Below, one piece after another: positions 42,987 to 61,489 of a stretch of DNA of 64,000 nt. The translations under genes were made by a program, and so were the position numbers. The notes beneath the pieces are model-generated. The model was not told the DNA's origin and ran no database searches. It saw only the letters and a program-made list of their open reading frames with translations. Source of the stretch: Parabacteroides faecis (GTDB lineage Bacteria; Bacteroidota; Bacteroidia; Bacteroidales; Tannerellaceae); assembly GCF_014647375.1 (NCBI RefSeq), contig NZ_BMPB01000002.1, forward strand, positions 186,001-250,000, read 5' to 3'. The stretch's first letter is position 1, and each line of letters starts with the position of its first letter.

Positions 42987-44846
42987 TTAAAACGGAAATA
43001 TTAAAGGCAGCACAAAGATCATAATAATTCCCATAATAATCTGCAGAGGTAATCCGACTTTTACATAATCCATAAATGTATACTTACCTGCCGACATCAC
43101 AAGCGCATTGGGCGGTGTAGAGAATGGGGAGGCAAAACACATACTGGCTCCGACCGTTACGGCAAGCAGGAACGGATAAGGACTTACGCCTATAGAAAGG
43201 GCTGACTGTAAAGCGATAGGTGCTACCAGTACGGCCGTTGCCGTATTACTGATAAACATCGTCAGTAGTGAAGTCGTGAAATAGATACCCGCCATCAGGA
43301 CAAGCGGTCCGTAATTACCCAGGCCGCCAACCAGCTTTTCAGAGATCAGCGACGAAGCCCCTGTTTTTTCCAGTGCCAGCGACATCGGTAACATGGCGGC
43401 AATCAGGACAATGCTTTCCCAATTGATCGTTTTATATGCATCTTCTACGTTCCGAAAACAACCGGTCAGTACCATTAATATAGCAGCTATCAGTACGGCT
43501 GCGACTGGTGGAATAGGTATAAAATCGAAAACCATGGCAGCGATCATCAGGATCATGATACCGGCAGCGACGGGTGCTTTGTAGTCGAGTGTGACTTTGG
43601 ATGCCTCTTCGACAGGTTGTCCCAATACTACCCATTGCGATTGTTTCTTGCTCATGCGGGCAATATCATCCCAGTTTCCTTGTATCAGCAGAAGATCTCC
43701 CGCGTGCATCTTTACGTCCTTTACATCGGATAGGATATATTCGTTACCCCGTTCTATTCCCAGGATATTGACGGAATATTTATCGCGGAAACCGGAATCT
43801 TTGACTGCCCTGTTGATCAGCTTGGAATCGGGCATCAATAAAACTTCTGCAATCCCGATTTCACGGACACTTAGTTTTTCATTGTCACCGGTGAATTCGG
43901 AGACCTTGGATTCGGTCAGGTCCAGATGGTTTTCTTCAACGAACTTATTAATATTATCGAAGCTGCCGAATACATATAATATATCTTCTTCCTGTATTTC
44001 TGTATCGGGACCGGCCAGTTTCTGGTCGACCGTTTTCATGAAACGGCTCTGTGAGGAGGATTTGCGCCTGATCTCCAGAATCGTCAGATTGTATAGGCTG
44101 GTGATATTCAATTCCTGTAGTTTCTTGTTCCGTATTCGTGAATCTTTATGGACACGTACACGGTACAGATTATCGGAAAGGCTATACTTGTTTGCCAGTT
44201 CCTGCGGTGAACGTCCGGTAGACGCATCGTTCTTTTTAGTATCTTCTTTTTTGGAGAGGAACCATTTGCTGAGCGGGATCAGAATAATGACACCGACAGT
44301 TATACAGACGATACCGATTGGAGTGAACGAAAAGAAGGACAGGTCTTTATAGCCTGCATTGGAAAGTGCTTCCTGTACAACGAGGTTGGGAGGGGTACCG
44401 ATCAGAGTCGCCATACCTCCCATACTGCTTGCGAATGCCAAAGGCATCAGGAAACGGCTCGGGCTGATATTGGCATTTACAGCCATACTGACAACGATAG
44501 GTAGCATAAGGGCAACGGTTCCTGTGTTGCTGACGAACGCCCCGATAAAGGCTGTTACCAACATGATCAGAATGAAAAGTTTAATCTCGCTGGTACCTGC
44601 CAGCTGCAATATTTTACTGCCGATCATTTTGGCCAGGCCGGTCTTGAAGATCGCACCGCCTACCACAAACAGACCGACCATCATAATAACGACGGAGTTG
44701 GAAAAACCTGAAAGTGCCTCTTCGGGAGTCAGGATATTGAACACCATTAATAAGACCAGGGCACATAATGCAACAAGGTCTGAACGTATTTTCCCATTAA
44801 CAAAAAAGACTGCCGACAAGGCTAGAATAATAAGAGTTGTTATCAT
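42987..44846 (-). CDS. SLC13/DASS-family anion permease with two TrkA-C domains
   Basis: The 619-residue protein has an N-terminal membrane half with SNTGTVALMLPIVVSMA and GGMATLIGTPPNLVVQEAL, a central cytoplasmic region with two TrkA-C domains (about residues 210-305 and 315-400), and a C-terminal membrane half with FISNTATAVLVAPIALQSALS and FASPFSTPPNALVMSAGKY. The paired SNT motifs mark the two halves of the divalent anion:sodium symporter fold. Substrates of the family include sulfate, phosphate and dicarboxylates; the TrkA-C insert is common in the sulfate-type group. A -7 element (TATTTTTG) lies at 44944-44951 on the minus strand. Confidence 0.9.
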   Translation of the reverse strand: MITTLIILALSAVFFVNGKIRSDLVALCALVLLMVFNILTPEEALSGFSNSVVIMMVGLFVVGGAIFKTGLAKMIGSKILQLAGTSEIKLFILIMLVTAFIGAFVSNTGTVALMLPIVVSMAVNANISPSRFLMPLAFASSMGGMATLIGTPPNLVVQEALSNAGYKDLSFFSFTPIGIVCITVGVIILIPLSKWFLSKKEDTKKNDASTGRSPQELANKYSLSDNLYRVRVHKDSRIRNKKLQELNITSLYNLTILEIRRKSSSQSRFMKTVDQKLAGPDTEIQEEDILYVFGSFDNINKFVEENHLDLTESKVSEFTGDNEKLSVREIGIAEVLLMPDSKLINRAVKDSGFRDKYSVNILGIERGNEYILSDVKDVKMHAGDLLLIQGNWDDIARMSKKQSQWVVLGQPVEEASKVTLDYKAPVAAGIMILMIAAMVFDFIPIPPVAAVLIAAILMVLTGCFRNVEDAYKTINWESIVLIAAMLPMSLALEKTGASSLISEKLVGGLGNYGPLVLMAGIYFTTSLLTMFISNTATAVLVAPIALQSALSIGVSPYPFLLAVTVGASMCFASPFSTPPNALVMSAGKYTFMDYVKVGLPLQIIMGIIMIFVLPLIFPF

Positions 44847-45063
44847 AAAAAGTTATTAAGATGGTTTTTACTAAACACAAAATCCCACTGTAATATAAAC
44901 CGGAAAGTTTGTTTATATGTTTACCTAATACCTGATTTTAGTACAAAAATAGTAGAAACATTGATACTATAATACATATCCGCCTGCCAAATTCAAGTTT
45001 GGTCATCAACCAAATACTGGTATGGATTGTTTTCTGTAAAATAAAGATATAGTGGATAGGGAT

Positions 45064-45627
45064 ATGAAGTATTTGATTATTATATGTATGTTTTTATATC
45101 AGTTGCCAGGTTTTTCACAAGACAGAAAAAATATGAATTCTAATAAAAAGGAGAAAGTGACAATGGAAAAGACAACTTATCAAAAGCCGGACGATGCAGC
45201 CTTACGGAATATATTGACCGATGAACAGTATGCAGTAACCCAGAAGAATGCAACTGAACATCCTTTCCATAACGAATATTGGAATGAATTTCGTGAAGGT
45301 ATTTATGTCGATATTACGACAGGTGAACCTTTGTTCATCTCTACCGATAAATTCGACTCCGGATGCGGCTGGCCCAGTTTCTCGAAACCGATCGACAAAA
45401 AACTGGTAAAGGAAAAACTGGATACTTCGCATGGTATGACGCGTGTGGAAGTGCGTAGCCATACAGGTGACGCGCACCTGGGGCATGTTTTTACCGATGG
45501 TCCGGCAGAGTCAGGGGGCTTGCGTTATTGCATAAATAGTGCTTCGCTACGTTTCATCCCTAAAGGTAAGATGAAAGCGGAAGGATATGGTGAATATCTT
45601 TCTTTATTAGAGAAAACGCATAAATAA
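45064..45627 (+). CDS. msrB: Exported peptide-methionine (R)-S-oxide reductase
   Basis: From the ATG at 45064 the protein has 187 residues with a short signal peptide ([19 protein letters not shown]); a GTG at 45052 is a less likely start. The MsrB fold shows [35 protein letters not shown] (Cys101), and [17 protein letters not shown] with the conserved histidines. The catalytic site is [11 protein letters not shown] (Cys156). The two zinc-binding CxxC pairs of many MsrB proteins are absent. It repairs R-methionine sulfoxide in periplasmic or surface proteins. Confidence 0.95.
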
Positions 45628-45690
45628 TTGCATGGCTGCAATGAATATATTATCTTCGCGGGATTGTTAACAACGACTGATGTGAAGAGA

Positions 45691-48108
45691 ATGAAGAAGT
45701 GTTTTTATCTCATTGTGGCCTTATTGTGTTTTAGTCTGTCTGTTTCCGCTGCTCCGATATCCCGTATCAAAGGGAAAATTGTGGATGCCGGAACAAATCA
45801 GCCATTAGATTTTGCGGATGTGCTCCTGTTTAAAAAGGGAGACAGTAATCCTGTGTTCCATGCTTTGCCTGACAGGGACGGAAGTTTTGGTATCGCAGAT
45901 GTGAAGAACGGAGAATATAGCCTGATGATCCGGCTGGTAGGATATGATTTGTTTACCCGTCCGGATATTGTGCTGGCATCGTCGTCGGCTACTGTCGATC
46001 TGGGAACGATCGCTATGAAGCCGCTGGAAGTCGGCCTGGCAGAAGTAGAGGTCGTGGCACAGAAGAAGCAGGTGATATATAAACTCGACAAAAAAGTGAT
46101 CGAAGCCTCTTCGAATATGCTGGCGAGCGGAGGGACGGCGGTCGATATCCTGGAAAATACACCTTCTATCCGTGTGGATGCAGAAGGGGAAGTCTCTTTC
46201 CGTGGAAGTACAGGCTTTACCGTTTATGTGGACGGTAAGCCGAGTGTTTTCAGCGGGACTCAGGCTTTGGAACAGATTCCTTCCGGACATATCGAAAATA
46301 TAGAGATCATCACCACCCCGTCTGCCCGCCACGATACGGGAGGCGATGTCGGGATTATCAATATCATTACCAAGAAGCATGCGCAACACGGATTCAGCGG
46401 AATGGTGAACCTGACGGGAAGTACTTTCCTTTCAAGAGGAGTCGATTTCCTGCTTACCCAACAGAATAAATCTTCCCGATGGTATTTCGGCGGAGGCTGG
46501 ACCGACCGTTTGCGAAAGAGTGATTTCGACCAGGAAAAGACGACGATCGTAGCCGATACGGCAACGACCTCCCATTCGAACGGACCGCGTGAGAGTAATA
46601 ATTTCAATTACTCGTTGAAAGCCGGTTGGATGTATACTTTGCCTCATACAACATTCAATGCCGACCTGGAAGGTGGCTACGGGGGCCGTACCCGTAACGG
46701 TGACCTGGACTATACGGAAGAACGTGTTGTCGATAAGAAGCCTTTCGAGAACGGCGATTATTACAGCCGTGACGATTACGACCTGCATGAAACATATTTC
46801 CAGGGAAGTGTGGGTTTCGACCATAAATTCAATGATCAGGGACATCAACTTACAGGAAGTTTTTATCTGAAATACGGCGGCGATGCGATGGAATATTTCC
46901 AGAGCGACCTCTTCAATAAGAATAATGAGCGCGAACAGGGGCATCGTGCCTGGGAAGACGAACACCGCTGGACAGTACGTGGAAATCTCGATTACCTATA
47001 TCCGTATAGTAAAACCGGACATATCGAGGCCGGTTATCAGTATTTTTCCTATCTGGAGGACGGCGATTACAGTATGCAGTTCTGGAGTCCTGAGAAGCAG
47101 GAGTTTTACTGGAGGGATGATATCTACAATACTTTTTATTTTCAGCACGGCATCAATTCGATCTATGCCATTGTCGGCGACAGTTATAAGTCGTTCGATT
47201 TCCAGGCTGGTGTAAGAGGGGAACATACACATCGTGTTCTCCGCAGTTCGATTCCCGGAAAGAACCGTGAATATAATAAATTCGAGTTTTTCCCTTCGGT
47301 TCACCTGGGATATACTTTCCCGAAAGATCACAAACTGATGGCATCCTATTCACGCCGTATCACGCGTCCGGAGCTTTTCTTTATGGAGCCTTATATTACG
47401 TATCGTGACTATTATTCGGCCGAGATCGGTAACCCGGATATCCGTTCGGAATATATCAACTCTTTTGAGCTTAACTATAAGAAGAATATCGGCGACCATA
47501 CGGTTTCCGCCACTGTGTTTCACCGTAGCCGGAAAGATAAGATAGAACGGTTACGTGTTCCTTATCAGGCTGGCGTGACATTGGATTCTATGGCAAATGT
47601 GGGACATGATTATTCAACCGGACTGGAGTTGAGCGGTCAGGTTCAGCTGACCCGCTGGTGGAACATGAACCTGAATGGTAGTTTATATCATTATAAGGTA
47701 AAGAACCAATACAAACAGGATGGAACGAACGAGAAAAGTACTAATTACGATATTATCTGGAATAATGCTTTCGATCTGGGGAAATCGACCCGTATCCAGT
47801 TGGATGGAAATTTTGTTGGCCCGTCGGTTACCACACAGGGGCGAACGGATGCTTTCTGGTATGTGAATCTTGCTCTCCGCCAGCAATTGATGAATCGTAA
47901 ACTGTCGGCTACACTTGCCTTCCGCGACGTATTCAATTCTGCCCGTTATGTAAGTAAGATAACTACTTCAGACTTACAGTCCATCACCCGTATCCGTCCG
48001 AATTATCCGCTTATCACCTTGACTTTGAGTTATACATTCAATAACTTCAAAGCCAAGACTACTCAGCGGAAAGAGGATCACGATCTGTTTGAAGGAACGA
48101 ATCATTGA
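45691..48108 (+). CDS. Outer-membrane beta-barrel receptor with a carboxypeptidase-like regulatory domain
   Basis: From the ATG at 45691 the protein has 805 residues with signal peptide MKKCFYLIVALLCFSLSVSA. Residues about 22-110 form a CarboxypepD_reg-like beta-sandwich (IKGKIVDAGTNQPLDFADVLLF). A plug follows (LASGGTAVDILENTPSIRVDAEGEVSFRGSTGFTVYVDG, GHIENIEIITTPSARHDTGGDVGIINIITKK). The long barrel matches the Bacteroidetes outer-membrane beta-barrel 3 group. It is TonB-dependent-receptor-like, but many of this group lack a clear TonB box and their cargo is unknown. A near-consensus -7 element (TATCTTCG) lies at about 45650. It ends 50 bp before the recombinase gene. Confidence 0.85.
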   Translation: MKKCFYLIVALLCFSLSVSAAPISRIKGKIVDAGTNQPLDFADVLLFKKGDSNPVFHALPDRDGSFGIADVKNGEYSLMIRLVGYDLFTRPDIVLASSSATVDLGTIAMKPLEVGLAEVEVVAQKKQVIYKLDKKVIEASSNMLASGGTAVDILENTPSIRVDAEGEVSFRGSTGFTVYVDGKPSVFSGTQALEQIPSGHIENIEIITTPSARHDTGGDVGIINIITKKHAQHGFSGMVNLTGSTFLSRGVDFLLTQQNKSSRWYFGGGWTDRLRKSDFDQEKTTIVADTATTSHSNGPRESNNFNYSLKAGWMYTLPHTTFNADLEGGYGGRTRNGDLDYTEERVVDKKPFENGDYYSRDDYDLHETYFQGSVGFDHKFNDQGHQLTGSFYLKYGGDAMEYFQSDLFNKNNEREQGHRAWEDEHRWTVRGNLDYLYPYSKTGHIEAGYQYFSYLEDGDYSMQFWSPEKQEFYWRDDIYNTFYFQHGINSIYAIVGDSYKSFDFQAGVRGEHTHRVLRSSIPGKNREYNKFEFFPSVHLGYTFPKDHKLMASYSRRITRPELFFMEPYITYRDYYSAEIGNPDIRSEYINSFELNYKKNIGDHTVSATVFHRSRKDKIERLRVPYQAGVTLDSMANVGHDYSTGLELSGQVQLTRWWNMNLNGSLYHYKVKNQYKQDGTNEKSTNYDIIWNNAFDLGKSTRIQLDGNFVGPSVTTQGRTDAFWYVNLALRQQLMNRKLSATLAFRDVFNSARYVSKITTSDLQSITRIRPNYPLITLTLSYTFNNFKAKTTQRKEDHDLFEGTNH

Positions 48109-48114
48109 TCAAAG

Positions 48115-48155
48115 CTTCTTTCATTTTGTTATATTGAACAACAAAATGAAAGAAG
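48115..48155 (+). promoter_or_regulatory. Long hairpin covering the recombinase translation start region
   Basis: A perfect 16-bp inverted repeat, CTTCTTTCATTTTGTT (48115-48130) and AACAAAATGAAAGAAG (48140-48155), has a 9-nt loop and ends 3 bases before the recombinase ATG at 48159. There is no T tract after it, so it is not a normal terminator. In an mRNA coming from upstream it would lock up the purine-rich GAAAGAAG in front of the start codon. Confidence 0.75.
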
Positions 48156-48158
48156 TCT

Positions 48159-49397
48159 ATGTATACAGTCTCAGTAAAAATTAAAAGAGGTATATCCGTA
48201 TCCGAAGAAAAGCGCATGCCGCTTTACGTGCAGCTGATTTACCGTCGTGAAACCCGGAAGATCCGGTTGCCCTACCGTGTCTCCGCTGGTGAATGGATAA
48301 GTGAAAGGGAAGAGGTGCATATTCCTTCCGGAAGTGAGGGGGAACGGAGTGAAGAGTTGCGCGGCATACGCGAACGTCTGGTCCGTGATTGCCGTACGGT
48401 CCGTCAGGTAGTTTGCTTGATGGAGAAGAAGAAAGTATTTACGCTGGACGAGATCGTGGCAGCGTGTAAGGAACGGTTCACGGTTTCCAACCTGACAAAA
48501 TATGTGGAGAAACTAATTGGGGAACTGTTTGCCGGAGGTAAGGATCAGACGGCCCGTCATTACCGGAGCACACTGAATTCTTTTCTCCGTTTCCGTCAAG
48601 GCAGTGACTTGCGTCTGGATGAACTGGACCCTGTCCTCGTGAAAGAATATGAATCTTATTTGTTCGGTACGGGACTTTGTGCCAATACGGTCTCTTTTTA
48701 TCTTCGTGTGCTGCGTTCCATCCTGAACCGTGCGGTCAGGGAAGGTCTGGTGGAAGCGGTTCCGATGCTTTTCAGCCATGTTCATACCCGTATTGAGAAA
48801 ACGCGTAAACGTGCGGTGGAGGAAAAAGTGATTCTTGAACTTGCCACCCTGCAACTGTCGTCTCCGGGGCTGGCCCTTTCCCGCGACCTGTTCCTTTTCT
48901 CTTATTATGCCCGTGGAATGGCTTTTGTCGACCTGGCCCACTTAAGGCGTGAGAATATCCGTGGCGGCAAGATCGTTTATATCCGGCGTAAAACCGGTCA
49001 GGAACTACAAATACAATTGTTGCCTGTGATGAAACAGCTTCTGTCGCGTTACCGGGATGCTTCGAGCCCCTATCTGTTTCCGGTACTGAAAAGTGCCACT
49101 CCCTCCCGTAAGGAGTATGAAAGCGCCCTCCGTCTTCAGAATAAGCGTCTGAAAAGGCTGGGAAGTTTGGTCGGGTCGGACCTATCCACTTATACAGCGC
49201 GGCATAGTTGGGCAAGCGTGGCCCTGGAAAAAGGTATATCCGAAGAACTGATCTCGAAAGGCATGGGCCATGAGTCAGTTAAAACGACACGTATTTATAT
49301 AGCCTACCGGAATACCTCGCAGATCGATCGTGCCAATGAGATAGTCATATTAGGAAGGAATTGTAAATCAAGGCTGCCCCGTGGAGTTGTCTTGTAA
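48159..49397 (+). CDS. Tyrosine site-specific recombinase (phage-integrase family), likely inverts the adjacent promoter
   Basis: The 412-residue protein has an N-terminal Arm-type region, a SAM-like core-binding domain (about residues 110-205) and a C-terminal catalytic domain. Catalytic residues are Arg252 in YYARGMAFVDLAHLRREN, a lysine in RRKTGQE, Arg348 in YTARHSWAS, His371 in GMGHESV and the nucleophile Tyr380 in TTRIYIAY. The usual His of the HxxR box is Tyr345 here. This is the Bacteroidetes class that controls phase variation. A 474-bp segment bounded by 22-bp inverted repeats begins 11 bp after the stop, and a fimbrial operon follows, so inversion of that promoter segment is its probable job. 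Translation may be limited by the hairpin at 48115-48155. Confidence 0.9.
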   Translation: MYTVSVKIKRGISVSEEKRMPLYVQLIYRRETRKIRLPYRVSAGEWISEREEVHIPSGSEGERSEELRGIRERLVRDCRTVRQVVCLMEKKKVFTLDEIVAACKERFTVSNLTKYVEKLIGELFAGGKDQTARHYRSTLNSFLRFRQGSDLRLDELDPVLVKEYESYLFGTGLCANTVSFYLRVLRSILNRAVREGLVEAVPMLFSHVHTRIEKTRKRAVEEKVILELATLQLSSPGLALSRDLFLFSYYARGMAFVDLAHLRRENIRGGKIVYIRRKTGQELQIQLLPVMKQLLSRYRDASSPYLFPVLKSATPSRKEYESALRLQNKRLKRLGSLVGSDLSTYTARHSWASVALEKGISEELISKGMGHESVKTTRIYIAYRNTSQIDRANEIVILGRNCKSRLPRGVVL

Positions 49398-49407
49398 GGG
49401 GGATTCT

Positions 49408-49429
49408 GTCTCTTGGTAAGAGACGGAAC
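49408..49429 (+). repeat. Left inverted repeat of the invertible segment
   Basis: The arm reads GTCTCTTGGTAAGAGAC followed by GGAAC. It is itself a palindrome (GTCTCTT, three bases, AAGAGAC), which suits two recombinase subunits on each site. The identity with the right arm stops sharply on both sides. Confidence 0.92.
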
Positions 49430-49457
49430 GGTAAAGGCAGTTAGTGTTAAAACTTCG

Positions 49458-49465
49458 CAAATGTA
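49458..49465 (-). promoter_or_regulatory. Promoter -7 element inside the invertible segment, facing the recombinase gene
   Basis: The minus strand reads TACATTTG, a full TAnnTTTG match; the -33 element is weak. In the present orientation transcripts would run left, out across the left repeat and antisense into the 3' end of the recombinase gene. Confidence 0.6.
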
Positions 49466-49538
49466 CTAACTCTTTTTTATATTTACGTTATGGTATCCAT
49501 GTTTTTTCGCATAACCAGCCTTAATATTCATTGTGTTT

Positions 49539-49643
49539 ATGAATATCATTACAAAAATTAAGAAAGAAGGCCGGTTGCTTTGGCTTCTCTCTCAGCTGGC
49601 TGTATTTATTCTTTTTTATTATTTCCTGTTCGTTTCTCTTTGA
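49539..49643 (+). CDS. Possible 34-residue membrane peptide inside the invertible segment
   Basis: A short frame encodes a basic N-terminus (MNIITKIKKEGR) followed by a hydrophobic stretch (LLWLLSQLAVFILFYYFLF) and a stop at 49641-49643. It looks like a one-helix membrane peptide. No promoter is seen for it in this orientation. In the inverted orientation it would lie on the strand opposite to fimbrial transcription. It may be chance in AT-rich DNA. Confidence 0.25.
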   Translation: MNIITKIKKEGRLLWLLSQLAVFILFYYFLFVSL

Positions 49644-49859
49644 TAATCTGTTGTTTATGAATTGTTTTCTTCTTTTTCTCCTGCATTGAATGTTGGATTA
49701 TCTTTTCTTTCCCCTGAAAAACAATCACTTTTCAATAGTCTGTCCAATCCTTTTACCAATTTCTGTTTTTTGAATGTTGTCCGGGGATGCTTTTTATGTA
49801 TGAAGATCCCGGTGGTAAATGACTAAAAGTGTTGTCGGTAGCTGGTTGTTGTTCCTACT

Positions 49860-49881
49860 GTTCCGTCTCTTACCAAGAGAC
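49860..49881 (-). repeat. Right inverted repeat of the invertible segment
   Basis: The plus strand reads GTTCC then GTCTCTTACCAAGAGAC, the exact reverse complement of the left arm over 22 bases. Confidence 0.92.
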
Positions 49882-49921
49882 GGCCCCGGTGCAGACGGTA
49901 ACCTAATCTGGTATTAATATA

Positions 49922-50491
49922 ATGTATAGGGCTCTTTATTTATCGCTATTATCTATCATATTTCTTCTCTCCTCTGTCCCGGGTCTGTGGGGACAGCAGA
50001 GCGCATTGAAAACGAATGTGCTGTATTGGGCAACGACTACGCCCAATGGGGGAGTGGAGCTGGGATTGGGGCGCCGTTTCTCTGTCGACTTGTGGGGCGC
50101 CTATAATGCGTGGAAGTTTTCCAATGAAATGAAATTGAATCTTTATCTGGTGCAACCAGAAATCCGTTTCTGGCCGTGCCGTAAGTTCGAGGGTCATTTT
50201 GTGGGTGTACATGGTCATTACGGTCATTTTAATATCGGACTGATCCCGTTCATCTCGGGCTTAAAGGATAATGTATTGAGGGGAGACCTGTATGGGGGAG
50301 GACTCACCTACGGCTACCATTGGGCGTTCGGTGACCGTTGGGGCGTGGAAACCCTTCTCGGTTGTGGTTATGTTTCGATGAAATACACCAAATATCGGTG
50401 CTCGGAATGTGCTGAACCTGTCGGAGCTTATACCCGTAGTTATTTCGGACCTACCCGTCTTGGTTTCTCCGTAATCTACATTTTACGTTAA
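49922..50491 (+). CDS. DUF3575 outer-membrane protein, first gene of the fimbrial operon
   Basis: The 189-residue protein has a signal peptide (MYRALYLSLLSIIFLLSSVPGLWG) and the DUF3575 pattern: ALKTNVLYWATTTPNGGVELGLGRRFSVDLWGAYN, then RFWPCRKFEGHFVGVHGHYGHFNIG, and amphipathic strands to the end (RLGFSVIYILR). It is probably a small beta-barrel in the outer membrane. Genes of this type regularly open Mfa/Fim-like fimbrial operons in Bacteroidales. It starts 41 bp after the right inverted repeat and is the first gene the switch would turn on. Confidence 0.85.
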   Translation: MYRALYLSLLSIIFLLSSVPGLWGQQSALKTNVLYWATTTPNGGVELGLGRRFSVDLWGAYNAWKFSNEMKLNLYLVQPEIRFWPCRKFEGHFVGVHGHYGHFNIGLIPFISGLKDNVLRGDLYGGGLTYGYHWAFGDRWGVETLLGCGYVSMKYTKYRCSECAEPVGAYTRSYFGPTRLGFSVIYILR

Positions 50492-50506
50492 ATCGAATCG
50501 TCTCTT

Positions 50507-51667
50507 ATGAAACAAATAATCTTACATTATATATTATGTATATCCGGTCTGCTTCTATTGCTGCCGCTGGATACTCTGGAGGCGCAGGGTATCCGTATCG
50601 TTCCGCAACGGATATCAGTGAAGAACGACAGCCTGCATGTACAACTCCGAATGGATTTGAACGAGGTGAGGGTAGGGCGTAACAGGGCCTTTATCTTTAC
50701 GCCGCAATTGTTGGGAGCGGGGAAGCAACAGGTCTCTTTACCTGCTGTCGTAATCAGCGGCTCGATACGCGACCGTCAGGATCGTCGGGAGGCGGCGCTT
50801 TCTCTCTGTAAAGAATGTACTGTTCCTTATCTTCGTATCCGTGACAGCCGGAATGTTTCTAAAAATATCACTTACCATATTTCCATACCTTATGCCTCAT
50901 GGATGCAGCATGCCATGTTGCTATTGAAACAGGAAAGTCGTGAATGTTGCGGCAATGAACTCTTGGCGGTAGATACGCTGCAATGCGATTTGGGTTTGGC
51001 TGCTGTGGCAGGTATTCCTCAATTGCCTGTTGTAAAGATGAAACTGCATCCGGAAGAAGCAGTGAAACCGAAAGTCGTAAAACCGGAACCGGCAGCTGTT
51101 ACAAGACCAAAGTCAACAATGGTTTCAACGTCAAAAGTAGCATCTGCAACTACTGAGAGTGTGGTACTCTATTTTGATTACCCGATTGGAAAGGACGATA
51201 TTCATCCCGACCTAAAAAACAACCGTTATGAGATCGACAAGATTGACCGGTTGATTGCCCCCCTACAGAGAACTCATTTTGCATCCGTCAAGTCCATCCG
51301 TATCTGCGGTTATTGCTCGCCTGATGGTAATTATGGTGATAACGAACGTCTTGCTGAAGCCCGTTCGCGTTTCTTCTCCATTTACCTGCGTAGTATGTAC
51401 GGCGTTCCCCGCGGACTTGTCAAGGTCTCATCGGTGGCGGAAGACTGGGAGGGGTTGGTGGATCTTTTGATGCGTGATAATCCTCCTTACCGTGATGCCG
51501 CCTTGCGCGTAATATCCCGCTATGGTATTTTCAACGGACGGGAAAAGTATTTAATGGAATTGCAGGGAGGTTCTCCCTATAAAGATATGCTGAGACATTT
51601 TTTTCCGAAGCTGCGGCGCATCGAGGTGATCGTTCGTTATGAAGAGGATAAAACGGAGGTGGAATGA
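50507..51667 (+). CDS. DUF3868 / OmpA-like fimbrial operon protein
   Basis: The 386-residue protein has a signal peptide to about residue 26. A DUF3868-like beta region follows (IRIVPQRISVKNDSLHVQLRMDLN, with LGAGKQQVSLPAVVISG). A Pro/Lys-rich linker (PKVVKPEPAAVTRPKS) leads to a C-terminal OmpA-like domain (about residues 218-386) with SIRICGYCSPDGNYGDNERLAEARS, the peptidoglycan-binding helix region. It probably ties the fimbrial assembly base to the cell wall. It overlaps the next gene by 4 bp (ATGA). Confidence 0.82.
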   Translation: MKQIILHYILCISGLLLLLPLDTLEAQGIRIVPQRISVKNDSLHVQLRMDLNEVRVGRNRAFIFTPQLLGAGKQQVSLPAVVISGSIRDRQDRREAALSLCKECTVPYLRIRDSRNVSKNITYHISIPYASWMQHAMLLLKQESRECCGNELLAVDTLQCDLGLAAVAGIPQLPVVKMKLHPEEAVKPKVVKPEPAAVTRPKSTMVSTSKVASATTESVVLYFDYPIGKDDIHPDLKNNRYEIDKIDRLIAPLQRTHFASVKSIRICGYCSPDGNYGDNERLAEARSRFFSIYLRSMYGVPRGLVKVSSVAEDWEGLVDLLMRDNPPYRDAALRVISRYGIFNGREKYLMELQGGSPYKDMLRHFFPKLRRIEVIVRYEEDKTEVE

Positions 51668-52605
51668 ATAAGATGGTGGAGATAGCATACCTGTTGCTGG
51701 CGGTGGTCTTATGCGGTTGCACATTTGGCGATGAACCGGGTGTCTGTCCGTATACGACACGGCTTGATTACTGGTATGCAGGCAACAGCAGTGAAAATAT
51801 GCTTCCGGTCTATGTAGACAATCTCCGCCAGTATCTTTTTGATGAAAGAGGTGATCTTCTCAGTGTGGTTGCTTTGCGGGGTGACACAATCCGCAGTTGG
51901 CAGGGAAATCTGGAAGAGGGTGACTATACCGTCGTTCTCTGGGGCAACCTGTCAGAAGACGGCAGTGATGACCTGGATGTACAGCCGCTGACCGATCGCC
52001 ACCTTGCAGATATGACACTCAGCGCCGTTACAGCCGAGGCTCCACCGGCCTACCGCCGTAATACGGGTCGACTCTATTACGGCTATCTGTCTTTCCATGT
52101 AGAGGAAGGGAAGATGTTTCGCCGACGTGTCTATCTCTCACATGCGCATGCATCATTGCATGTGACGGTACAATGGATGGCGGATGCCCCGCCGGAGGGA
52201 GGCACTTACCGGATGCGTATGAAAGGGGTGGCATCGGAGTATGGTTTCATGAAGGGCTGGGAGAGTGAGCCGCTCACTTCGGGAGGTAGTTATACGGTGC
52301 CGTATATCGGAACTTCCGAGATCAGCCACGAGACACGTGCTGCAATGAATTACGATGGTGAAGTGATAGGCGATTTCGTCACTTTCCGGTACACTTCCGA
52401 CACTCATCAGCTATGGAGCCTGTGGCGGAATGACGAGCGTATCGTCGGTGACCTCGATCTACATCGTTTCTTCTCGAAAAAACCGATGAACATGGATCGG
52501 AATGTGGAGCAGGAATTCGAAATCCTGGTAACGGTCTACGAAGATAAAATCATCGTCTCGGAAATAACCGATTCCGATTGGGACGAGGGTGGGGCGATAG
52601 GATAA
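51664..52605 (+). CDS. FimB/Mfa2-family fimbrial anchor lipoprotein
   Basis: The 313-residue protein has a lipoprotein signal with the lipobox ending at Cys19 (AVVLCGC). The family pattern is seen in the early DNLRQYLFDERGDLLSVV segment, EGDYTVVLWGNLSED, the YGYLSFHVEEGKMFRRRVYLSHAHASLHVTVQW region and the C-terminal DLDLHRFFSKKPMNMDRNVEQEFEILVTVYEDKIIV. Mfa2/FimB proteins cap the pilus base in the outer membrane and limit its length. It overlaps the gene before it by 4 bp and is followed by the large fimbrillins. Confidence 0.88.
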   Translation: MNKMVEIAYLLLAVVLCGCTFGDEPGVCPYTTRLDYWYAGNSSENMLPVYVDNLRQYLFDERGDLLSVVALRGDTIRSWQGNLEEGDYTVVLWGNLSEDGSDDLDVQPLTDRHLADMTLSAVTAEAPPAYRRNTGRLYYGYLSFHVEEGKMFRRRVYLSHAHASLHVTVQWMADAPPEGGTYRMRMKGVASEYGFMKGWESEPLTSGGSYTVPYIGTSEISHETRAAMNYDGEVIGDFVTFRYTSDTHQLWSLWRNDERIVGDLDLHRFFSKKPMNMDRNVEQEFEILVTVYEDKIIVSEITDSDWDEGGAIG

Positions 52606-52647
52606 AAGAGATTTATAAACATATAGTATTCACTTAAAAAAGTAGTT

Positions 52648-55119
52648 ATGAAAAAGACGTATTTGATGTTGCTTTTGGCCCTGGCTGGGTTGGGAAGCAG
52701 TTGTACGAATGAAGACGGGACTGAGGGTGTAACCCCTTCGGGCGATCCCGGTGAAATTCAGTTGGTATTCAGCGGAAGCGGAGAAGAAGAGGAATATACG
52801 AAAGCGATAGCCTCTGACAGTGAGAACAAGATCAGCAAATTAGATGTGTACCTGTTTGGTGCCGCATCTGCATCTACCAATGATGCAGACTACCATTACA
52901 TTGAAACCTGGAAAATGACGGAAGCAACACCGACTGGTAACCAGTTTATATTGCAGCCTTCCGGTTCGTCGTGGACAGCCTCTATCAAGCCGAACGAACT
53001 GAAAGGGCTTCCGTATCTGACATTGGTTTGTGTGGCTAACCAGGATAAACTGTTTGATGCGGATGGTAATGATTTTGCAGCTTTGGACGTGGTTACGACG
53101 GATGCTGGAACTGGTGATATCACTGCAGCCGGTACGACCTTGGATGCATTCAAAGCCGCTTATACGGCTAAGATGGCAGATCCTGCAACTGATTTTATCA
53201 AAACCCCGCTGGCAATGACCGGAACGGGAACGACAAAGATCAGCGGCAGTGTCTCGAAAGTCGCCATTACGTTGAAACGAATTGTTGCCCGTTTCGACAT
53301 CGACAACACGACGGCAACTTCGCAGTTGACCATCGAGAAGGTGTCGATGGGGAAAGGCCGTTCGAACGGTTCACTTTTCGGAGCGACACTGACGGATGCA
53401 GCAGCCGGTGATCTGGTTACTTATAAGGATGTCGATTTCACAGGTGAGAACGCCAATCAGGGAACCCTTGAAAGTGCCATCTACGTATATCCGAATATTC
53501 CCGGCGATGAGAGTTTCCTGATCATCAAGGGTAAATACAAAAGTCCGTCTACCGGTGAACAGATAGCTGTCACTTACAATATCCCGGTTGTTAAAACACC
53601 CGCTGATGCCAAGCCGGATGATCCTGCTAACTATATCGCTATCAATGCCAACAGCCGTTACAAGCTCCGTATTACCGACGTAACCGAATCAAATATCTAT
53701 TCCACTTTCGAGGTGGAAGACTGGACATCGGGCGGTGGTGTCATCATCAAACCGGATAATACGAAACCTGAATTTAACAAGTTTGCAGGAACTAACCCGC
53801 CGACAGATCTTACGGGAGGTTATTACCGCACCTTGGCTGACGGAACATTCGACATTGTGATGACCTCGACCGGAGAACTGGAATACAGCCGTTCACTGGT
53901 AACGAAAGCCGGTGATGAAATAGACTGGCTGACCGTCGGGACACCGACCACTGAACAGAAAGACGGACTGACGATAACGACCTTCCCGGTCACTATAGCC
54001 GATGCTACCGGCAAGCGTCCTGTCTCGCTTACCTTCATCAATCAGGCAGCCTCTTACGATCCCGACTTGCAGACAACGTTGACTTTCGTCGGTCCGGAAG
54101 CCGCTCCTGTAGTAAGCGAAGTTGTCGAAGGGCATAGTGAAGGCAATTCTGTGGATGTAACGTCGCCGGATGCTCCCGAAGCTACCATGGTCAAAGCGGT
54201 GGGCAGCTACGTCTCATTGAACGTCTTCTGTGTGGACGGCCTTGCCGACATTACCGTCCCCAATGGTTATTCGGTAACCCCGGTTGTAACCGAAGGCTTT
54301 ACGACTACTTATCGTGTGGCTATAACAGATGCCGATCAAGCTGCCGACGATGCAACAGTCGTATTCAAGAACAAAGCTGCCGAAGCCAACTCAATTACAT
54401 TGACCATCAAGCATAAAAAGGCTTCCCAACCTTCGATTGTAGCAAACAGTGACGGTTCTTACATTAACAGTACATATAATAGTGGCACGATGGGCGGAAC
54501 AGCCACTGCGGCTACTGCCGATATGTATCTGATCGACGGAAGTACGATTTACGTCAAGGTAACTTGTACGGAAAGTACAACGGCCGGTGCGGTGACGGTA
54601 GCTGCCCCTGCAGGTGTTACGGTAACAGAAGAAACGGCTGCTCCCGGAATATTCAAGATCGAGATCCCGACAGCAACATCCCTGACAGCCGGAACGGCGG
54701 TAACAGTCACGTTCAAGAATGCAACGGACGAGATGGTCACCTCTACGCTGGAAATCACTCCTAAAAGCATGAAGCCGACAGTGGCGTTAGCCGATGATAA
54801 TGGTGCCGTAACAGGATCTGATGGTACTTATACCGTTGATCTTTCCGCCTTATCCACCAACACATTTACATTAACCGTGACAGCTCCGACAGGTGCAACC
54901 ATTGCTGACCTGTCAACTCCGTTTACCAGTGCCGGTTGGTTGAAACTGGATGATAGTAATGCAGGAGGTACGACGATTGCTGCCAATGGAAACCAGGTCT
55001 ACACCTTTACCTCCGGAGATTCCTCGGGTGATACAGGCGATGTAACCCTGACTTTCACCAACACCGTTTCCGGCGGTGGAGACCTGACAGTAACCCTGAA
55101 GAAGAAAACTACTATCTGA
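52648..55119 (+). CDS. Large fimbrillin-like lipoprotein (first of three)
   Basis: The 823-residue lipoprotein has its lipobox at Cys19 (LAGLGSSC). The N-terminal half (to about residue 375) is a Mfa1/FimA-like pair of beta-sandwiches: ENKISKLDVYLFGA, LVCVANQDKLF, TPLAMTGTGT, ITLKRIVARFDIDN, IEKVSMGKGRSNGS and YKLRITDVTESNIYSTFEVEDW. The C-terminal half is a series of Thr/Ala-rich beta domains of 80-90 residues, BACON-like or Ig-like, ending DLTVTLKKKTTI. Such proteins polymerise or decorate the fimbria after maturation. Length is about twice that of FimA. It is less similar to the other two fimbrillins here than they are to each other. Confidence 0.85.
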   Translation: MKKTYLMLLLALAGLGSSCTNEDGTEGVTPSGDPGEIQLVFSGSGEEEEYTKAIASDSENKISKLDVYLFGAASASTNDADYHYIETWKMTEATPTGNQFILQPSGSSWTASIKPNELKGLPYLTLVCVANQDKLFDADGNDFAALDVVTTDAGTGDITAAGTTLDAFKAAYTAKMADPATDFIKTPLAMTGTGTTKISGSVSKVAITLKRIVARFDIDNTTATSQLTIEKVSMGKGRSNGSLFGATLTDAAAGDLVTYKDVDFTGENANQGTLESAIYVYPNIPGDESFLIIKGKYKSPSTGEQIAVTYNIPVVKTPADAKPDDPANYIAINANSRYKLRITDVTESNIYSTFEVEDWTSGGGVIIKPDNTKPEFNKFAGTNPPTDLTGGYYRTLADGTFDIVMTSTGELEYSRSLVTKAGDEIDWLTVGTPTTEQKDGLTITTFPVTIADATGKRPVSLTFINQAASYDPDLQTTLTFVGPEAAPVVSEVVEGHSEGNSVDVTSPDAPEATMVKAVGSYVSLNVFCVDGLADITVPNGYSVTPVVTEGFTTTYRVAITDADQAADDATVVFKNKAAEANSITLTIKHKKASQPSIVANSDGSYINSTYNSGTMGGTATAATADMYLIDGSTIYVKVTCTESTTAGAVTVAAPAGVTVTEETAAPGIFKIEIPTATSLTAGTAVTVTFKNATDEMVTSTLEITPKSMKPTVALADDNGAVTGSDGTYTVDLSALSTNTFTLTVTAPTGATIADLSTPFTSAGWLKLDDSNAGGTTIAANGNQVYTFTSGDSSGDTGDVTLTFTNTVSGGGDLTVTLKKKTTI

Positions 55120-55120
55120 A

Positions 55121-55228
55121 GGTAACCTTTCCCCTCTTGAGAGGGGGCAGGGGGTGTGTTAAAGCAAGTTCTTTTAACCGCCCTATAACACACCCCTTAA
55201 TCCCCTCTCCAGAGGGGAAACAGTTACC
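55121..55228. repeat. Large intergenic palindrome between two fimbrillin genes
   Basis: The 108-bp element is an interrupted inverted repeat: GGTAAC...CCCCTCTTGAGAGGGG...GGGGTGTGTTA on the left and TAACACACCCC...CCCCTCTCCAGAGGGG...GTTACC on the right. Each arm also holds a small hairpin. It looks like the REP-like or MITE-like palindromes that are dispersed in many Bacteroidetes genomes. In RNA it would form a very stable cruciform and could lower expression of downstream fimbrillins or protect the upstream message. Confidence 0.85.
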
Positions 55229-55266
55229 ATTAGTTGTTCAAACATAAATATTAAAACAAGTATATA

Positions 55267-57153
55267 ATGAACCTATTCAAACATATCCCCTTGCTCGCCG
55301 CCATCCTTCTTTTGGCCGCCTGCACCAGCGAGAATACGCTGGAAACCACGACTCCCCCGGACGAGGGCGGAACGTCGGACGGTAACACCCGTGAAGTCCT
55401 GCTGTTACTTAAGAACAAGTTGCAAGTAACCCCGGTCGAAACCAAAGCAGCCGGTGATCCTATCGCCACGACAGCCGAGAACTATATCTATAGTCTCGAC
55501 GTCTACGTCTTCGGCTCCAATACGGAAGACGGCGATTACACATTCCTGCAACAGTTCTATTACCGGGAAGATGCCCGCCAAACGGTTTCCGGCGATTATG
55601 CCACCAGCTTCACCCTGAATACGGGTGCCGATAACTCGACCGCCCTGCTTCGCATGAAGAAAGGTCTTTTTGTGAAGGTTTACTGCATCGCCAACAGTAC
55701 GAAACTGATCCAGGCTGACGGAACCGAATTCGATGATTTCAAAGGATTGATACAGAGTAATCCGGGCCAGGCGGGCAACGCCATTACTGACGGTGTGCCT
55801 ACTGAAAGTGATTTCAAAACCTTCCATACACCGGCCTTGCAGGCAGATGTCGCCGATGATGTGCTGCTCACGCCGCTGCCAATGACGGGAGCCTACACCA
55901 CGCCTCTCGACCTGACTGACTTCTCTGTCTCTACCCGTAGGCAACTGGGTTTCAAACTCACTCGTATGGTCGCCCGCTTCGATGTGACGAATAACGCCGC
56001 AGATTCGAAATTCACTATCGAATCAGTGAGCATGGGTAACGGACGTACCGGAGCCGGTTATTTTCCGGTCAAGGTACTAGGCGCAACACCTGCTCAAGCT
56101 GGCGACCTGATCACTTACCCTGCCCGTGAATATACGGATACCCAGACAGGAGTCAATACGGAAGGAAAAGGCATCTTCTATTCTTATCCCAGTCCGGTGG
56201 ATGATGGTGGTTACCTGATCCTGACAGGAACCTATGCCGCCAACAAGACGGAGGAAATACCTGTCACCTATAAAGTACCCTTTAAACCGGCTGGCGATGC
56301 TTCCGGTAACTATATCGAAGTGGCTTATAACCATCGTTATACTATCAATATCACAAAAGCCGACGAGTATCACCTCGACTTTACGATTGATGTAGCGGAC
56401 TGGACAGACGAAGGTGATATAGACGATTACAAACCGGATAATGACTTCACCAAAGACGCATTAGCGTTAGCAGGTACAGGTAATTCAGCGGATGTCAAGT
56501 TACTGGCTGATGGCAATATCGTAATGGATGCCACTAGCAGTTCGACATCAGGAAAACTCGCCTTTACCATTGCCGGAAATAACAGCGAAGCTTCCGCTAT
56601 CGTCGAAAAACTCGATTATGCTGGTGGCGATGAATGGCTGGTGGCAGACGGCGACAGAGAGACTACTCCTACAAAGGCTTCAACATCGACCCTGTTTAAA
56701 TATAAGATGGCAGACGGCATTGGCTCCATGACCGATTTTCGTCCGGTAACGATCCGCCTGAGCAATAAAGCAAGCGGCAAGAACCTGGATATAAAGGTAA
56801 CGCCTACCGCCTTGTCCGGCCCGGTGATCAGTCTGGTTCCGGTAGCAGGCAGCAGCTATGATGCGGCGACGAATACGGTTACTATCGATAATACCGATGG
56901 ACAGACGTTCAAGCTGCATGCAATAGCTCCCGCCTTGTCCGGTGAAGCAGGTACGACAGGAAGCAGCGTATCCGTGGCTGGGGCATGGCTCACAGCCGAT
57001 CCGTCAAGTGTAACGACCGCCGAAGATGACTACACATTCACAATGGCGACGGCACAGGCTAGTCCGGATGAAACGACCACGGTGACTTTAACCTCTGCTG
57101 CCACTTCGGCTACTACGGTTGTAAATGTTAAACTAAAAACCGTTATCCCCTGA
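55267..57153 (+). CDS. Fimbrillin-like lipoprotein (second of three)
   Basis: The 628-residue lipoprotein has its lipobox at Cys19 (ILLLAAC). The N-terminal 390 residues share a block with the protein at 57464: YSLDVYVFGSNTEDGDYTF, LRMKKGLFVKVYCIANSTKLI, QSNPGQAGNAITDGVPTE, LLTPLPMTGAYTTPLDLTDFSV, LTRMVARFDVTNNAADSKFTIESVSMGNGR and KADEYHLDFTIDVADWTDEG. The C-terminal 230 residues are divergent beta domains. It is probably an alternative major or accessory fimbrial subunit on the cell surface. Its stop overlaps the HU gene start (TGATG). Confidence 0.87.
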   Translation: MNLFKHIPLLAAILLLAACTSENTLETTTPPDEGGTSDGNTREVLLLLKNKLQVTPVETKAAGDPIATTAENYIYSLDVYVFGSNTEDGDYTFLQQFYYREDARQTVSGDYATSFTLNTGADNSTALLRMKKGLFVKVYCIANSTKLIQADGTEFDDFKGLIQSNPGQAGNAITDGVPTESDFKTFHTPALQADVADDVLLTPLPMTGAYTTPLDLTDFSVSTRRQLGFKLTRMVARFDVTNNAADSKFTIESVSMGNGRTGAGYFPVKVLGATPAQAGDLITYPAREYTDTQTGVNTEGKGIFYSYPSPVDDGGYLILTGTYAANKTEEIPVTYKVPFKPAGDASGNYIEVAYNHRYTINITKADEYHLDFTIDVADWTDEGDIDDYKPDNDFTKDALALAGTGNSADVKLLADGNIVMDATSSSTSGKLAFTIAGNNSEASAIVEKLDYAGGDEWLVADGDRETTPTKASTSTLFKYKMADGIGSMTDFRPVTIRLSNKASGKNLDIKVTPTALSGPVISLVPVAGSSYDAATNTVTIDNTDGQTFKLHAIAPALSGEAGTTGSSVSVAGAWLTADPSSVTTAEDDYTFTMATAQASPDETTTVTLTSAATSATTVVNVKLKTVIP

Positions 57154-57431
57154 TGAACAAACACGATTTAGTGCTTGCCTTGTCCGAGCGCCTCTCCCTG
57201 ACACAATCCCAGAGCCTTGAGATTGTGAACGTCTGGGAGGGCGTTCTGTCAGACGCTTTACTGTCTGACGAACGGATTGTGCTGCAAGGTTTCGGCACTT
57301 TTACTTCCTGGAAGCAGAGTGAGCGTTTGGGACGTAATCCACGTACAGGGAAAACCTGTACAATCGAAGCACGTACCAGCGTGAAGTTCAAACCCGGTAA
57401 ATATTTGCTGGAGGTTCTGAACAAGAAATAG
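57153..57431 (+). CDS. HU-family DNA-binding protein inside the fimbrial operon
   Basis: The 92-residue protein is a full HU/IHF-type fold: helices with MNKHDLVLALSERLSLTQSQSLEIVNVWEGVL, then the beta-arm core ERIVLQGFGTFTSWKQSERLGRNPRTGKTCTIEARTSVKFKPGKYLLEVLN. The conserved GFGTF, R-x-G-R-N-P-x-T-G and FKPGK segments are intact, so DNA bending is likely. It shares one base with the fimbrillin stop before it and lies 32 bp before the third fimbrillin gene. It may act on the operon or on the invertible promoter; this is inference from position. Confidence 0.92.
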   Translation: MNKHDLVLALSERLSLTQSQSLEIVNVWEGVLSDALLSDERIVLQGFGTFTSWKQSERLGRNPRTGKTCTIEARTSVKFKPGKYLLEVLNKK

Positions 57432-57463
57432 AATAATAGTAAATCCATAAGAAAGAAACAACG

Positions 57464-60409: not shown

Positions 60410-60461
60410 ATATACCTAACCTACTCGAACGAGTATATTCATTAATTAAACAATTTTAAAC

Positions 60462-61232
60462 ATGGCAAATTACACCAAATTCTGGAAGGTCTGGCTTCGC
60501 CTGAACCTCCTAACCAAAGATGTGGATAACGACTATACAGCCGAAGTATCCACGATGAAGAACTCGTTGCGTAACGAAGACATTGCGCAGCGTATAGTCG
60601 ATGAAGGTTCTGAAATCAAGTACGACACCTTATTGTCGATCATCAACCAGCACGACCGCATCATCCGTGAAGCGGTTGCAGACGGTTACAGTGTCTTAAC
60701 GAAAACCTGCCAGTACACTCCGCGTGTGGCGGGAACCTGGATCGGTTCGAGTGCCAAATTCGACCCTGAGAAACATAAGGTGACGCTCGATATCACTCTT
60801 TCTTCCGAGATGCGTGAGTCATTGAGTCATGTCGGAGTAGAGGTGTTGGAGGTAAAAGACAGCGGTGCACGTATCGGTCTTGTTACGGATACGGTCACCG
60901 GCCTTCCTGACGGAACGATCACCCCGGGTGACGATATCCGTATTGACGGTGAGAAGATCCGTATAGCCGGTGACGGAGCCGGTATCGGTGTTTTCTTTAT
61001 CGATGCCGACGGTAAGGAATATCCCGTTACCCGCCGTCTGACGACTAACGACCCTAAATGCCTGCTTGCCCGTGTCCCTTCCGACCTGACTGACGGACAG
61101 TACACCCTGCGTATCGTCACCCGTTTTTCAAACACGACCACTCTGTTGAAAGAGCCCCGTACTATCGAATACGAACGGCTCCTCACTGTCGGTAACGGCG
61201 GTGGTGGCAGCGACCGTCCCGAAATCGAGTAA
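60462..61232 (+). CDS. HU-like N-terminal domain plus DUF4469 C-terminal domain protein
   Basis: The 256-residue protein has no signal peptide. The N-terminal 125 residues (KFWKVWLRLNLLTKDVDNDYTAEV, NEDIAQRIVDEGSEIKYDTLLSIINQHD) match the DNA-binding, HU-like domain found with DUF4469. The C-terminal 100 residues match DUF4469, with ITPGDDIRIDGEKIRIAGDG and DGKEYPVTRRLTTNDPKCLLARVPSDLTDGQYTLRIVTRFS, an Ig-like fold. It closes the fimbrial operon, 52 bp after the third fimbrillin. It is a second likely DNA-binding protein in one surface-structure operon. A short palindrome (ACTCGAACGAGT) lies just upstream, near 60423-60434. Confidence 0.82.
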   Translation: MANYTKFWKVWLRLNLLTKDVDNDYTAEVSTMKNSLRNEDIAQRIVDEGSEIKYDTLLSIINQHDRIIREAVADGYSVLTKTCQYTPRVAGTWIGSSAKFDPEKHKVTLDITLSSEMRESLSHVGVEVLEVKDSGARIGLVTDTVTGLPDGTITPGDDIRIDGEKIRIAGDGAGIGVFFIDADGKEYPVTRRLTTNDPKCLLARVPSDLTDGQYTLRIVTRFSNTTTLLKEPRTIEYERLLTVGNGGGGSDRPEIE

Positions 61233-61239
61233 CTATTCT

Positions 61240-61344
61240 CCGTCGCGATGAGACGCCGCCTTACGTCTCATCGTGACGCAACCCTACGTCTAACCCCGAC
61301 GCAACGTTACGTCTCACCGAGATGCAGCACGGTGTCGGGGTTAG
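61240..61344. repeat. Array of four 23-bp palindromic units after the fimbrial operon
   Basis: Units start at 61240, 61263, 61286 and 61309, exactly 23 bp apart. Each has CGTC, seven variable bases, and GACGC or a close variant. Two larger inverted repeats add to it: CGATGAGACG (61246-61255) with CGTCTCATCG (61264-61273), and CTAACCCCGAC (61290-61300) with GTCGGGGTTAG (61334-61344). The design parallels the 22-bp array at 13018-13109, with different sequence. Confidence 0.85.
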
Positions 61345-61454
61345 ATGCTAATTGTACATGGTTTAATAGACTATTAAGAAATATAGGAGAGTGACCCTAT
61401 CAAAATTGTAACATATTATGTCATTTTTATAAGTCTGAATAATAGCTAGATACC

Positions 61455-61462
61455 TATTTTTG
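61455..61462 (+). promoter_or_regulatory. Predicted promoter of the GH127-type gene
   Basis: TATTTTTG is a full TAnnTTTG match, with the start site about 20 nt before the ATG at 61490. Confidence 0.5.
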
Positions 61463-61489
61463 TTACCATCCATTCTTAGATCAATCATT

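Follow-up and report, generated by a model that had tools for sequence, protein, structure and literature searches.

Inversions of outer surface protein loci by Tsr recombinases have been described in Bacteroides fragilis (Weinacht et al. 2004, as cited in PMC12632263). As in the locus studied here, a tyrosine recombinase, DNA inversion (predicted in our case) and a phase-variable surface locus come together, and a Tsr locus held an open reading frame matching a sequenced fimbrial protein (PMC12632263). However, these loci belong to another genus, and their authors were then unable to show fimbriae (PMC12632263). In BF2766/Tsr19 and IVp-I, the recombinase gene lies directly upstream of the promoter that the recombinase inverts, an arrangement also proposed here (PMC4747536, PMC3090145). 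BF2766/Tsr19 controls exopolysaccharide genes and a distant promoter (PMC4747536), whereas the present assembly yielded no further repeat pair at up to two mismatches. The local promoter of Tsr19 is mostly OFF: it was OFF in three of three B. fragilis genome sequences, with both orientations detected by PCR in three of three populations (PMC3090145), so that an assembly in the OFF orientation does not imply a dead switch.

In gut Bacteroidaceae, invertible promoters are often preceded by a recombinase gene (PMC13114119), and gut bacteria carry fimbrillin genes 3' of invertons as well as neighbouring invertases that the inverton cannot drive (PMC11892184). In hCom2, the fimbrillin-linked inverton groups 137, 112 and 122 are enriched upstream of fimbrillin genes, the position also seen here, and group 137 is linked to an invertase group, a likeness drawn from their description (PMC11892184). 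That such switches are established for surface loci of Bacteroidales, as the initial annotation of the locus had stated, agrees with the B. fragilis Tsr loci and the fimbrillin-linked invertons (PMC12632263, PMC11892184). Because fimbrillin-linked invertons and a B. fragilis phase locus with a fimbrial reading frame have already been reported, the present locus is one more case of a kind of switch known in relatives. It differs from the Mpi-type serine invertase switch, in a comparison that considered the adjacent gene only, in that the adjoining gene encodes a tyrosine recombinase.

The fim locus of Escherichia coli resembles the present one in its order, with a recombinase gene, an invertible promoter and a fimbrial operon in succession, and its fimbriae are unrelated to type V fimbriae. 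In fimE-fimS-fimA, an OFF bias is seen with FimE and the orientation of the segment affects fimE mRNA, features that may have counterparts here (PMC9993118). The E. coli system has 9-bp repeats and two recombinases, however, and the likeness is one of layout, not of membership (PMC9993118).

Putative switch segment, recombinase and fimbrial operon in the window

The window, that is, the whole stretch of 64,000 nucleotides that was analysed, corresponds to C2:186001-250000 of a 6.66-Mb assembly from the genus Parabacteroides. The following features make up its putative switch:

48159-49397, plus strand: tyrosine recombinase of 412 aa, the likely local invertase, reading towards the switch (Pfam, homologues, alignment)
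49408-49429, plus strand: left inverted repeat, putative recombination site, letter for letter the same in three relatives
49430-49859, no strand: interior of the predicted invertible segment, 430 bp, 43.6-55.3% identity to three relatives
49445-49465, minus strand: conserved promoter block, TACATTTG then CGAAGTTTTAACA, towards the recombinase, exact pattern in six switches only
49458-49465, minus strand: -7 element TACATTTG (CAAATGTA on the plus strand), the sole TAnnTTTG of the interior on both strands
49860-49881, minus strand: right inverted repeat, putative recombination site, letter for letter the same in three relatives

The perfect 22-bp inverted repeats around 430 bp that had been annotated were found; GTCTCTTGGTAAGAGACGGAAC occupies 49408-49429 and is matched at 49860-49881 by its exact reverse complement, so that the whole element, repeats included, measures 474 bp. 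The pair grows to 26 nt if one mismatch is allowed, and each repeat is itself nearly palindromic (GTCTCTT-GGT-AAGAGAC). By 4^22 arithmetic, about 4e-6 perfect 22-bp inverted pairs within ~1.1 kb are expected by chance per 64 kb. Repeats around a short intergenic segment, an adjoining tyrosine recombinase and TAnnTTTG inside the segment, by which invertible promoters of Bacteroidales are recognised, are thus all present. The assembly contains no second repeat pair at up to one mismatch in 14 core bases or up to two in a longer pattern; no further copy that could be worked in trans turned up at up to two mismatches, apart from a single imperfect and unpaired site on contig C6. A search of the accessible literature for a 12-base piece of the repeat found no paper containing it, and no Rfam match to a structured RNA was obtained within 44000-64000.

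The recombinase gene adjoins the left repeat as had been annotated, with 10 bases between its stop and the repeat; the 11 bp given earlier was a difference of coordinates. Its product carries the Pfam domains Phage_int_SAM_5 (2.7e-19) and Phage_integrase (1.4e-10), and K278, R348, H371 and Y380 do not vary among seven aligned sequences. Relative to XerD and an archaeal Xer, Ala replaces the first catalytic Arg and Tyr replaces the box-II His, both of which are also missing from the six aligned homologues. The first catalytic arginine is likewise lost in IntDOT of Bacteroides, so its absence does not count against recombinase activity. In three relatives (L027:3647-4924, L029:6100-7362 and L030:55-1002) the recombinase reading frame stops inside the left repeat (C-terminus SVSW, stop in GGTAA), and there the repeat doubles as coding sequence for the end of the enzyme; the stop in the window lies 10 bases before the repeat. 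Upstream, the gap between the stop of a TonB gene and the recombinase start holds a perfect 16-bp inverted repeat with a 9-nt loop (48115-48155), possibly a terminator without a GC-rich stem.

The interior contains a single TAnnTTTG, on the minus strand, in line with the initial annotation; after inversion TACATTTG would sit on the plus strand at 49824-49831, exactly where it had been predicted. By eye, no TTTG box lies at the usual -33 distance from this -7 element. The sibling profile, built from 46 non-redundant sibling promoters, itself shows no more than a weak T-rich signal at -33 (at most 0.5 bit per position), and the -33 box was therefore treated as supporting, not defining. The window promoter, whose upstream half is A-rich, scores -1.2 on this profile, at which 45 of the 46 training sites score at least 7.4, and it is outscored by 121 of 127,906 scored window positions. 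Given the low score and the missing -33 box, the promoter may need an activator, the site of which could be the conserved GTTTTAACA just downstream of the -7 element.

The promoter block is the best-conserved part of the interior. Its identity to three relatives is 93.5, 96.8 and 83.9% over 49445-49475, against 53.2, 55.3 and 43.6% for the interiors, and in 16-base windows 0.81 of its columns are invariant (mean 0.30), with two stretches near 49516 and 49652 a close second at 0.75. An extended motif, TANNTTTGNNAMGTTTTAACA, was derived from the same switches and searched in five genomes (G000, G019, G022, G004 and G024) at up to one mismatch. Six exact matches were obtained (one each in G000, G019 and G022, three in G004 and none in G024), all within the six switches of the family described below and all facing the recombinase, and one-mismatch matches outside switches numbered two (G000 C6 and G004 C153).

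Downstream of the right repeat, eight genes on the plus strand form an apparent operon:

49922-50491, plus strand: DUF3575 protein, first gene of the operon (PF12099, 9.7e-64)
50507-51667, plus strand: DUF3868 protein (PF12984, 1.8e-8), with an OmpA-like C-terminal part by eye
51664-52605, plus strand: Mfa2-like anchor lipoprotein (PF08842, 8.8e-20)
52648-55119, plus strand: fimbrial subunit, perhaps tip-like (partial FimD_tip_adhes, 38.5 bits against a cut-off of 170; no Pfam family)
55267-57153, plus strand: FimA-like fimbrillin lipoprotein (P_gingi_FimA, 8.3e-6)
57153-57431, plus strand: HU/IHF-like DNA-binding protein within the operon (PF00216, 1.4e-26; 75% identity in P. gordonii)
57464-60409, plus strand: large subunit related to the 55267-57153 protein (no Pfam above cut-off; as a query it also matches fimbrillin genes of relatives)
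60462-61232, plus strand: HU-like DNA-binding and DUF4469 protein, last gene of the apparent operon (PF14848, 1.1e-29; PF14734, 1.5e-26)

These Pfam matches bear out the Mfa/Fim-like operon placed 3' of the right repeat by the initial annotation; between the repeat and the first ATG (49922), 40 bases were counted and not the 41 bp that had been given. Anchor and stalk lipoproteins occur together, with the Mfa2 and FimA families above cut-off, as in type V (FimA/Mfa) pili, and lipobox cysteines were seen by eye. A strong fixed promoter at 49882-49921 had been named as evidence against a switch; it was looked for, and a fixed operon promoter 3' of the right repeat was rejected, no promoter-like site being found between the repeat and the operon. 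By analogy with IHF, which promotes fim switching in E. coli (PMC8777976), the HU/IHF-like protein (57153-57431) might conceivably act back on the switch. The P. gordonii counterpart of the 57464-60409 gene is broken into two reading frames that overlap (L028:12336-15270).

The switch family in relatives and the reading of the locus

A search with the switch DNA matched six of 60 genomes, own genome included, the two matches outside the genus being short and weak. The switch family consists of six loci in four genomes, namely the window and five relatives in three other genomes, with three of them, L184 and L030 included, in G004. In G019 (P. gordonii), G004 (MAG BH.2_3) and G022, the recombinase, the repeats, DUF3575, DUF3868, Mfa2 and at least one fimbrillin-like gene occur in the same order, and this co-occurrence in three relatives supports the earlier interpretation of the locus as a switch. 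G019 and G004 share the TonB gene upstream as well, and no homologue of it was found in the stretch fetched from G022. The recombinase of G022 is 47% identical to that of the window, yet its 22-bp repeats are letter for letter the same; three of the five relatives have repeats identical to those of the window, with interiors 44-55% alike. Repeat matches in a viral collection (L023-L026), in Alistipes (L019) and in Clostridiales (L020) were rejected, as 11 window proteins gave no tblastn match there at 1e-5.

Throughout the family (six of six members), the conserved promoter block points at the recombinase and not at the operon side, and OFF, the orientation initially annotated, is for this reason the better reading. 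Altogether, we infer from the sequence, with a probability of about 0.87 and for inversion, enzyme and transcription alike, that the locus is a phase switch of the fimbrial operon worked by a local invertase, with the sequenced copy OFF. The recombinase (48159-49397) would most likely recombine both 22-bp repeats and so invert the 474-bp element, and the asymmetric repeat centre of three bases (GGT versus ACC) between otherwise palindromic arms, a design compatible with a tyrosine-recombinase site, would ensure that the product is an inversion. In the OFF state, transcription from the promoter block would run to the left and enter the recombinase gene at its 3' end in antisense, with the operon left without a recognisable promoter; antisense RNA into the gene is plausible because no terminator was found between promoter and recombinase by a simple scan of 47900-50600 (shuffle average 2.8). 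In the ON state, transcription from the inverted promoter would run to the right, starting ~80 nt upstream of DUF3575, and the leader would include one of the repeat hairpins.

It is very unlikely that the segment inverts and the operon is ON as sequenced, driven by a weak plus-strand promoter within the segment (for example 49629-49642), with TACATTTG in another role such as antisense RNA. Four plus-strand sites in the scanned 49301-50000 (49629, 49635, 49671 and 49795) do reach values of -0.7 to 1.7 with the sibling profile and outscore TACATTTG at -1.2, but none of them is a full TAnnTTTG, and by eye they are not conserved in the three aligned relatives, where GTTG, GCTG and ACTG stand in place of the TTTG at 49639-49642. 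The leftward TACATTTG block, by contrast, leads the interior in conservation, and among the five genomes searched its extended form is exact in family switches only.

A fossil switch that has kept its anatomy and is frozen OFF would fit the one orientation shared by six of six members, and it would fit L030 (G004), which is cut by a contig end and shows one repeat with 2 of 22 bases off the family sequence. It is highly improbable, since the recombinase reading frame is intact and the repeats are perfect in the window and three relatives despite the diverged interior. Moreover, although the repeats of L184 (G004) have drifted from the family sequence, 30 of 31 bases still match between their arms, where a frozen site should decay. 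That recombinase and repeats are remains of a mobile element, with an integrase unrelated to the operon, draws on Pfam domains common to integrases and is scarcely credible, given that P. gordonii, a MAG and G022 all show the recombinase-repeat-fimbrial order and that a repeat pair lies in the 3' flanks of 91 of 113 homologues.

Read as a phase switch, the locus adds a defined fimbrial switch subfamily, whose conserved putative recombination site and switch-specific promoter motif can help to find and score such switches in metagenomes.

Survey of homologous recombinases

With a paralogous recombinase of the same genome as query, 133 homologues were obtained in 31 of 39 genomes of the genus (summed matches). 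Of these, 119 were examined; 11 of the 14 left out had E-values of 2.7e-46 or weaker. A repeat pair was called where its left arm lay near the end of the gene and its score was at least 15. Such an inverted-repeat pair lies just 3' of the recombinase in 91 of the 119 modules, many of which are orthologues and not independent; among the 113 modules with enough flank, 91 have a pair, against 0-1 in each of ten dinucleotide shuffles. TAnnTTTG points only towards the recombinase in 64 of the 91 segments, only away in 7 and both ways in 7, and it is absent from 13, including the probably mispaired segment of L106, counted as lacking it. Recombinase-facing motifs thus occur in 71 of 91 segments (200 shuffles: mean 22.1, largest 36), and away-facing motifs, in 14 of 91, are not above chance (shuffle mean 21.0, largest 34). 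When similar segments are grouped, 28 of 42 groups are mainly recombinase-facing, 3 are opposite and 11 are tied or without a motif. The recombinase-facing to away count is 43:2 in genomes of at most 40 contigs and 21:5 in the others. Reading these modules as OFF presumes regulated genes beyond the far repeat, and the downstream gene is seen for a minority of them. The survey provides a base rate: most examined recombinases stand directly before an inverted-repeat segment, and most motifs face the recombinase.

In the genome of the window, all six recombinases passing 1e-40 have a repeat pair and a motif facing the recombinase, and eight more distant recombinases have no repeat pair. Besides that of the window, this genome has five modules of recombinase and inverted repeats, L062-L066 (G000 C11, C1, C3, C23 and C7), all with the motif facing the recombinase; the first downstream gene of L063 encodes an HU-DUF4469 protein and that of L065 a protein with sigma-70 region 4-like HTH repeats.

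Beyond the genus, 27 loci of other genera were sampled with a simpler exact-match repeat search. A repeat pair was found in 11 of them, with the motif towards the recombinase in 5 (L077, L080, L081, L082 and L098), away in 3 (L092, L096 and L094, the repeats of L094 flanking the recombinase itself), both ways in 2 and absent in 1, and the bias towards the recombinase looks weaker there. A second search, order-wide, gave matches in 6 of 295 genomes.

Homologous segments are inverted between genomes in five locus pairs in total. L126 (G021) and L128 (G013) share 204 bp at 99% in opposite orientation, with colinear flanks at 94-95%, and in L108/L109, L122/L164, L120/L174 and L116/L117 the segments are inverted between genomes at 75-83% identity. 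Among segment pairs with detectable similarity, the best match is in the same orientation in 147 and in the opposite one in 9; no opposite-orientation pair comes from the window's own switch family, whose six members are all alike. A contig end lies no more than 500 nt away on the switch side in 12 of the 119 modules, compared with 1 of 119 for the opposite side, a skew compatible with mixed orientations in the sequenced populations, which other repeats could also cause.

OFF bias and a possible self-locking layout

The strong OFF bias is the unusual aspect, perhaps reflecting a self-locking layout like that of E. coli fimE-fimS. The convergent layout may itself be a regulator, in that antisense RNA from the OFF promoter would repress the invertase, OFF thereby locking itself, and the ON orientation would relieve the invertase and flip back; we regard this idea as tentative and rather doubtful. 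If true, it would account for the skew within the genus, where the promoter points at the invertase in 64 of the 71 modules whose motif faces one way only, and for the vanishing of the local OFF bias in B. fragilis with plasmid-supplied enzyme (PMC4747536). In that species, the promoter beside BF2766 is mostly OFF in the wild type and no frequency difference was reported for the distant IVp-II; the local OFF bias was lost when the enzyme came from a plasmid (PMC4747536). On the other hand, 96 of 96 B. fragilis deletion colonies screened were OFF/ON, and the distant promoter may be ON-biased (PMC4747536). In Phocaeicola vulgatus, a polysaccharide promoter next to a defective recombinase was almost entirely ON in broth (PMC13114119). 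In E. coli, whether fimE is joined to its Rho-dependent terminator depends on the orientation of fimS (PMC9993118).

By analogy, the 64:7 count together with the B. fragilis and E. coli cases would suggest orientational control as a shared principle. The case for self-locking is tempered by the outside-genus sample, which is smaller and weaker (5 towards, 3 away), and the counts would follow equally well from selection for OFF or from the expression of surface structures one at a time. If the bias stems from convergent transcription and not from selection, it would amount to a simple rule by which gut Bacteroidales keep costly surface structures off in most cells. No published claim of antisense control of an invertase in Bacteroides was found in the accessible literature, subscription papers and supplements being mostly out of reach, and the word 'antisense' was not found in the accessible main text of PMC11892184.

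Selection and antisense control could be compared through invertons that have no neighbouring invertase, of which at least one clear pair occurs among the matches listed, too few for such a comparison. This is an inverted CTTATTT-type pair at G024 C36:40538-40961, on a contig with none of the recombinases listed at 1e-40, and it is a candidate for a switch worked in trans. At G012 C2:3018453-3022394, three palindromic repeat cores lie in the same orientation, 1.7 and 2.2 kb apart, unlike simple switches. In one draft genome, L215 and L217 (G001 C50 and C44) have ~1.03 kb in common at 98% over the recombinase end; the motif points away from the recombinase in one and towards it in the other, and their segments are dissimilar in the comparison.
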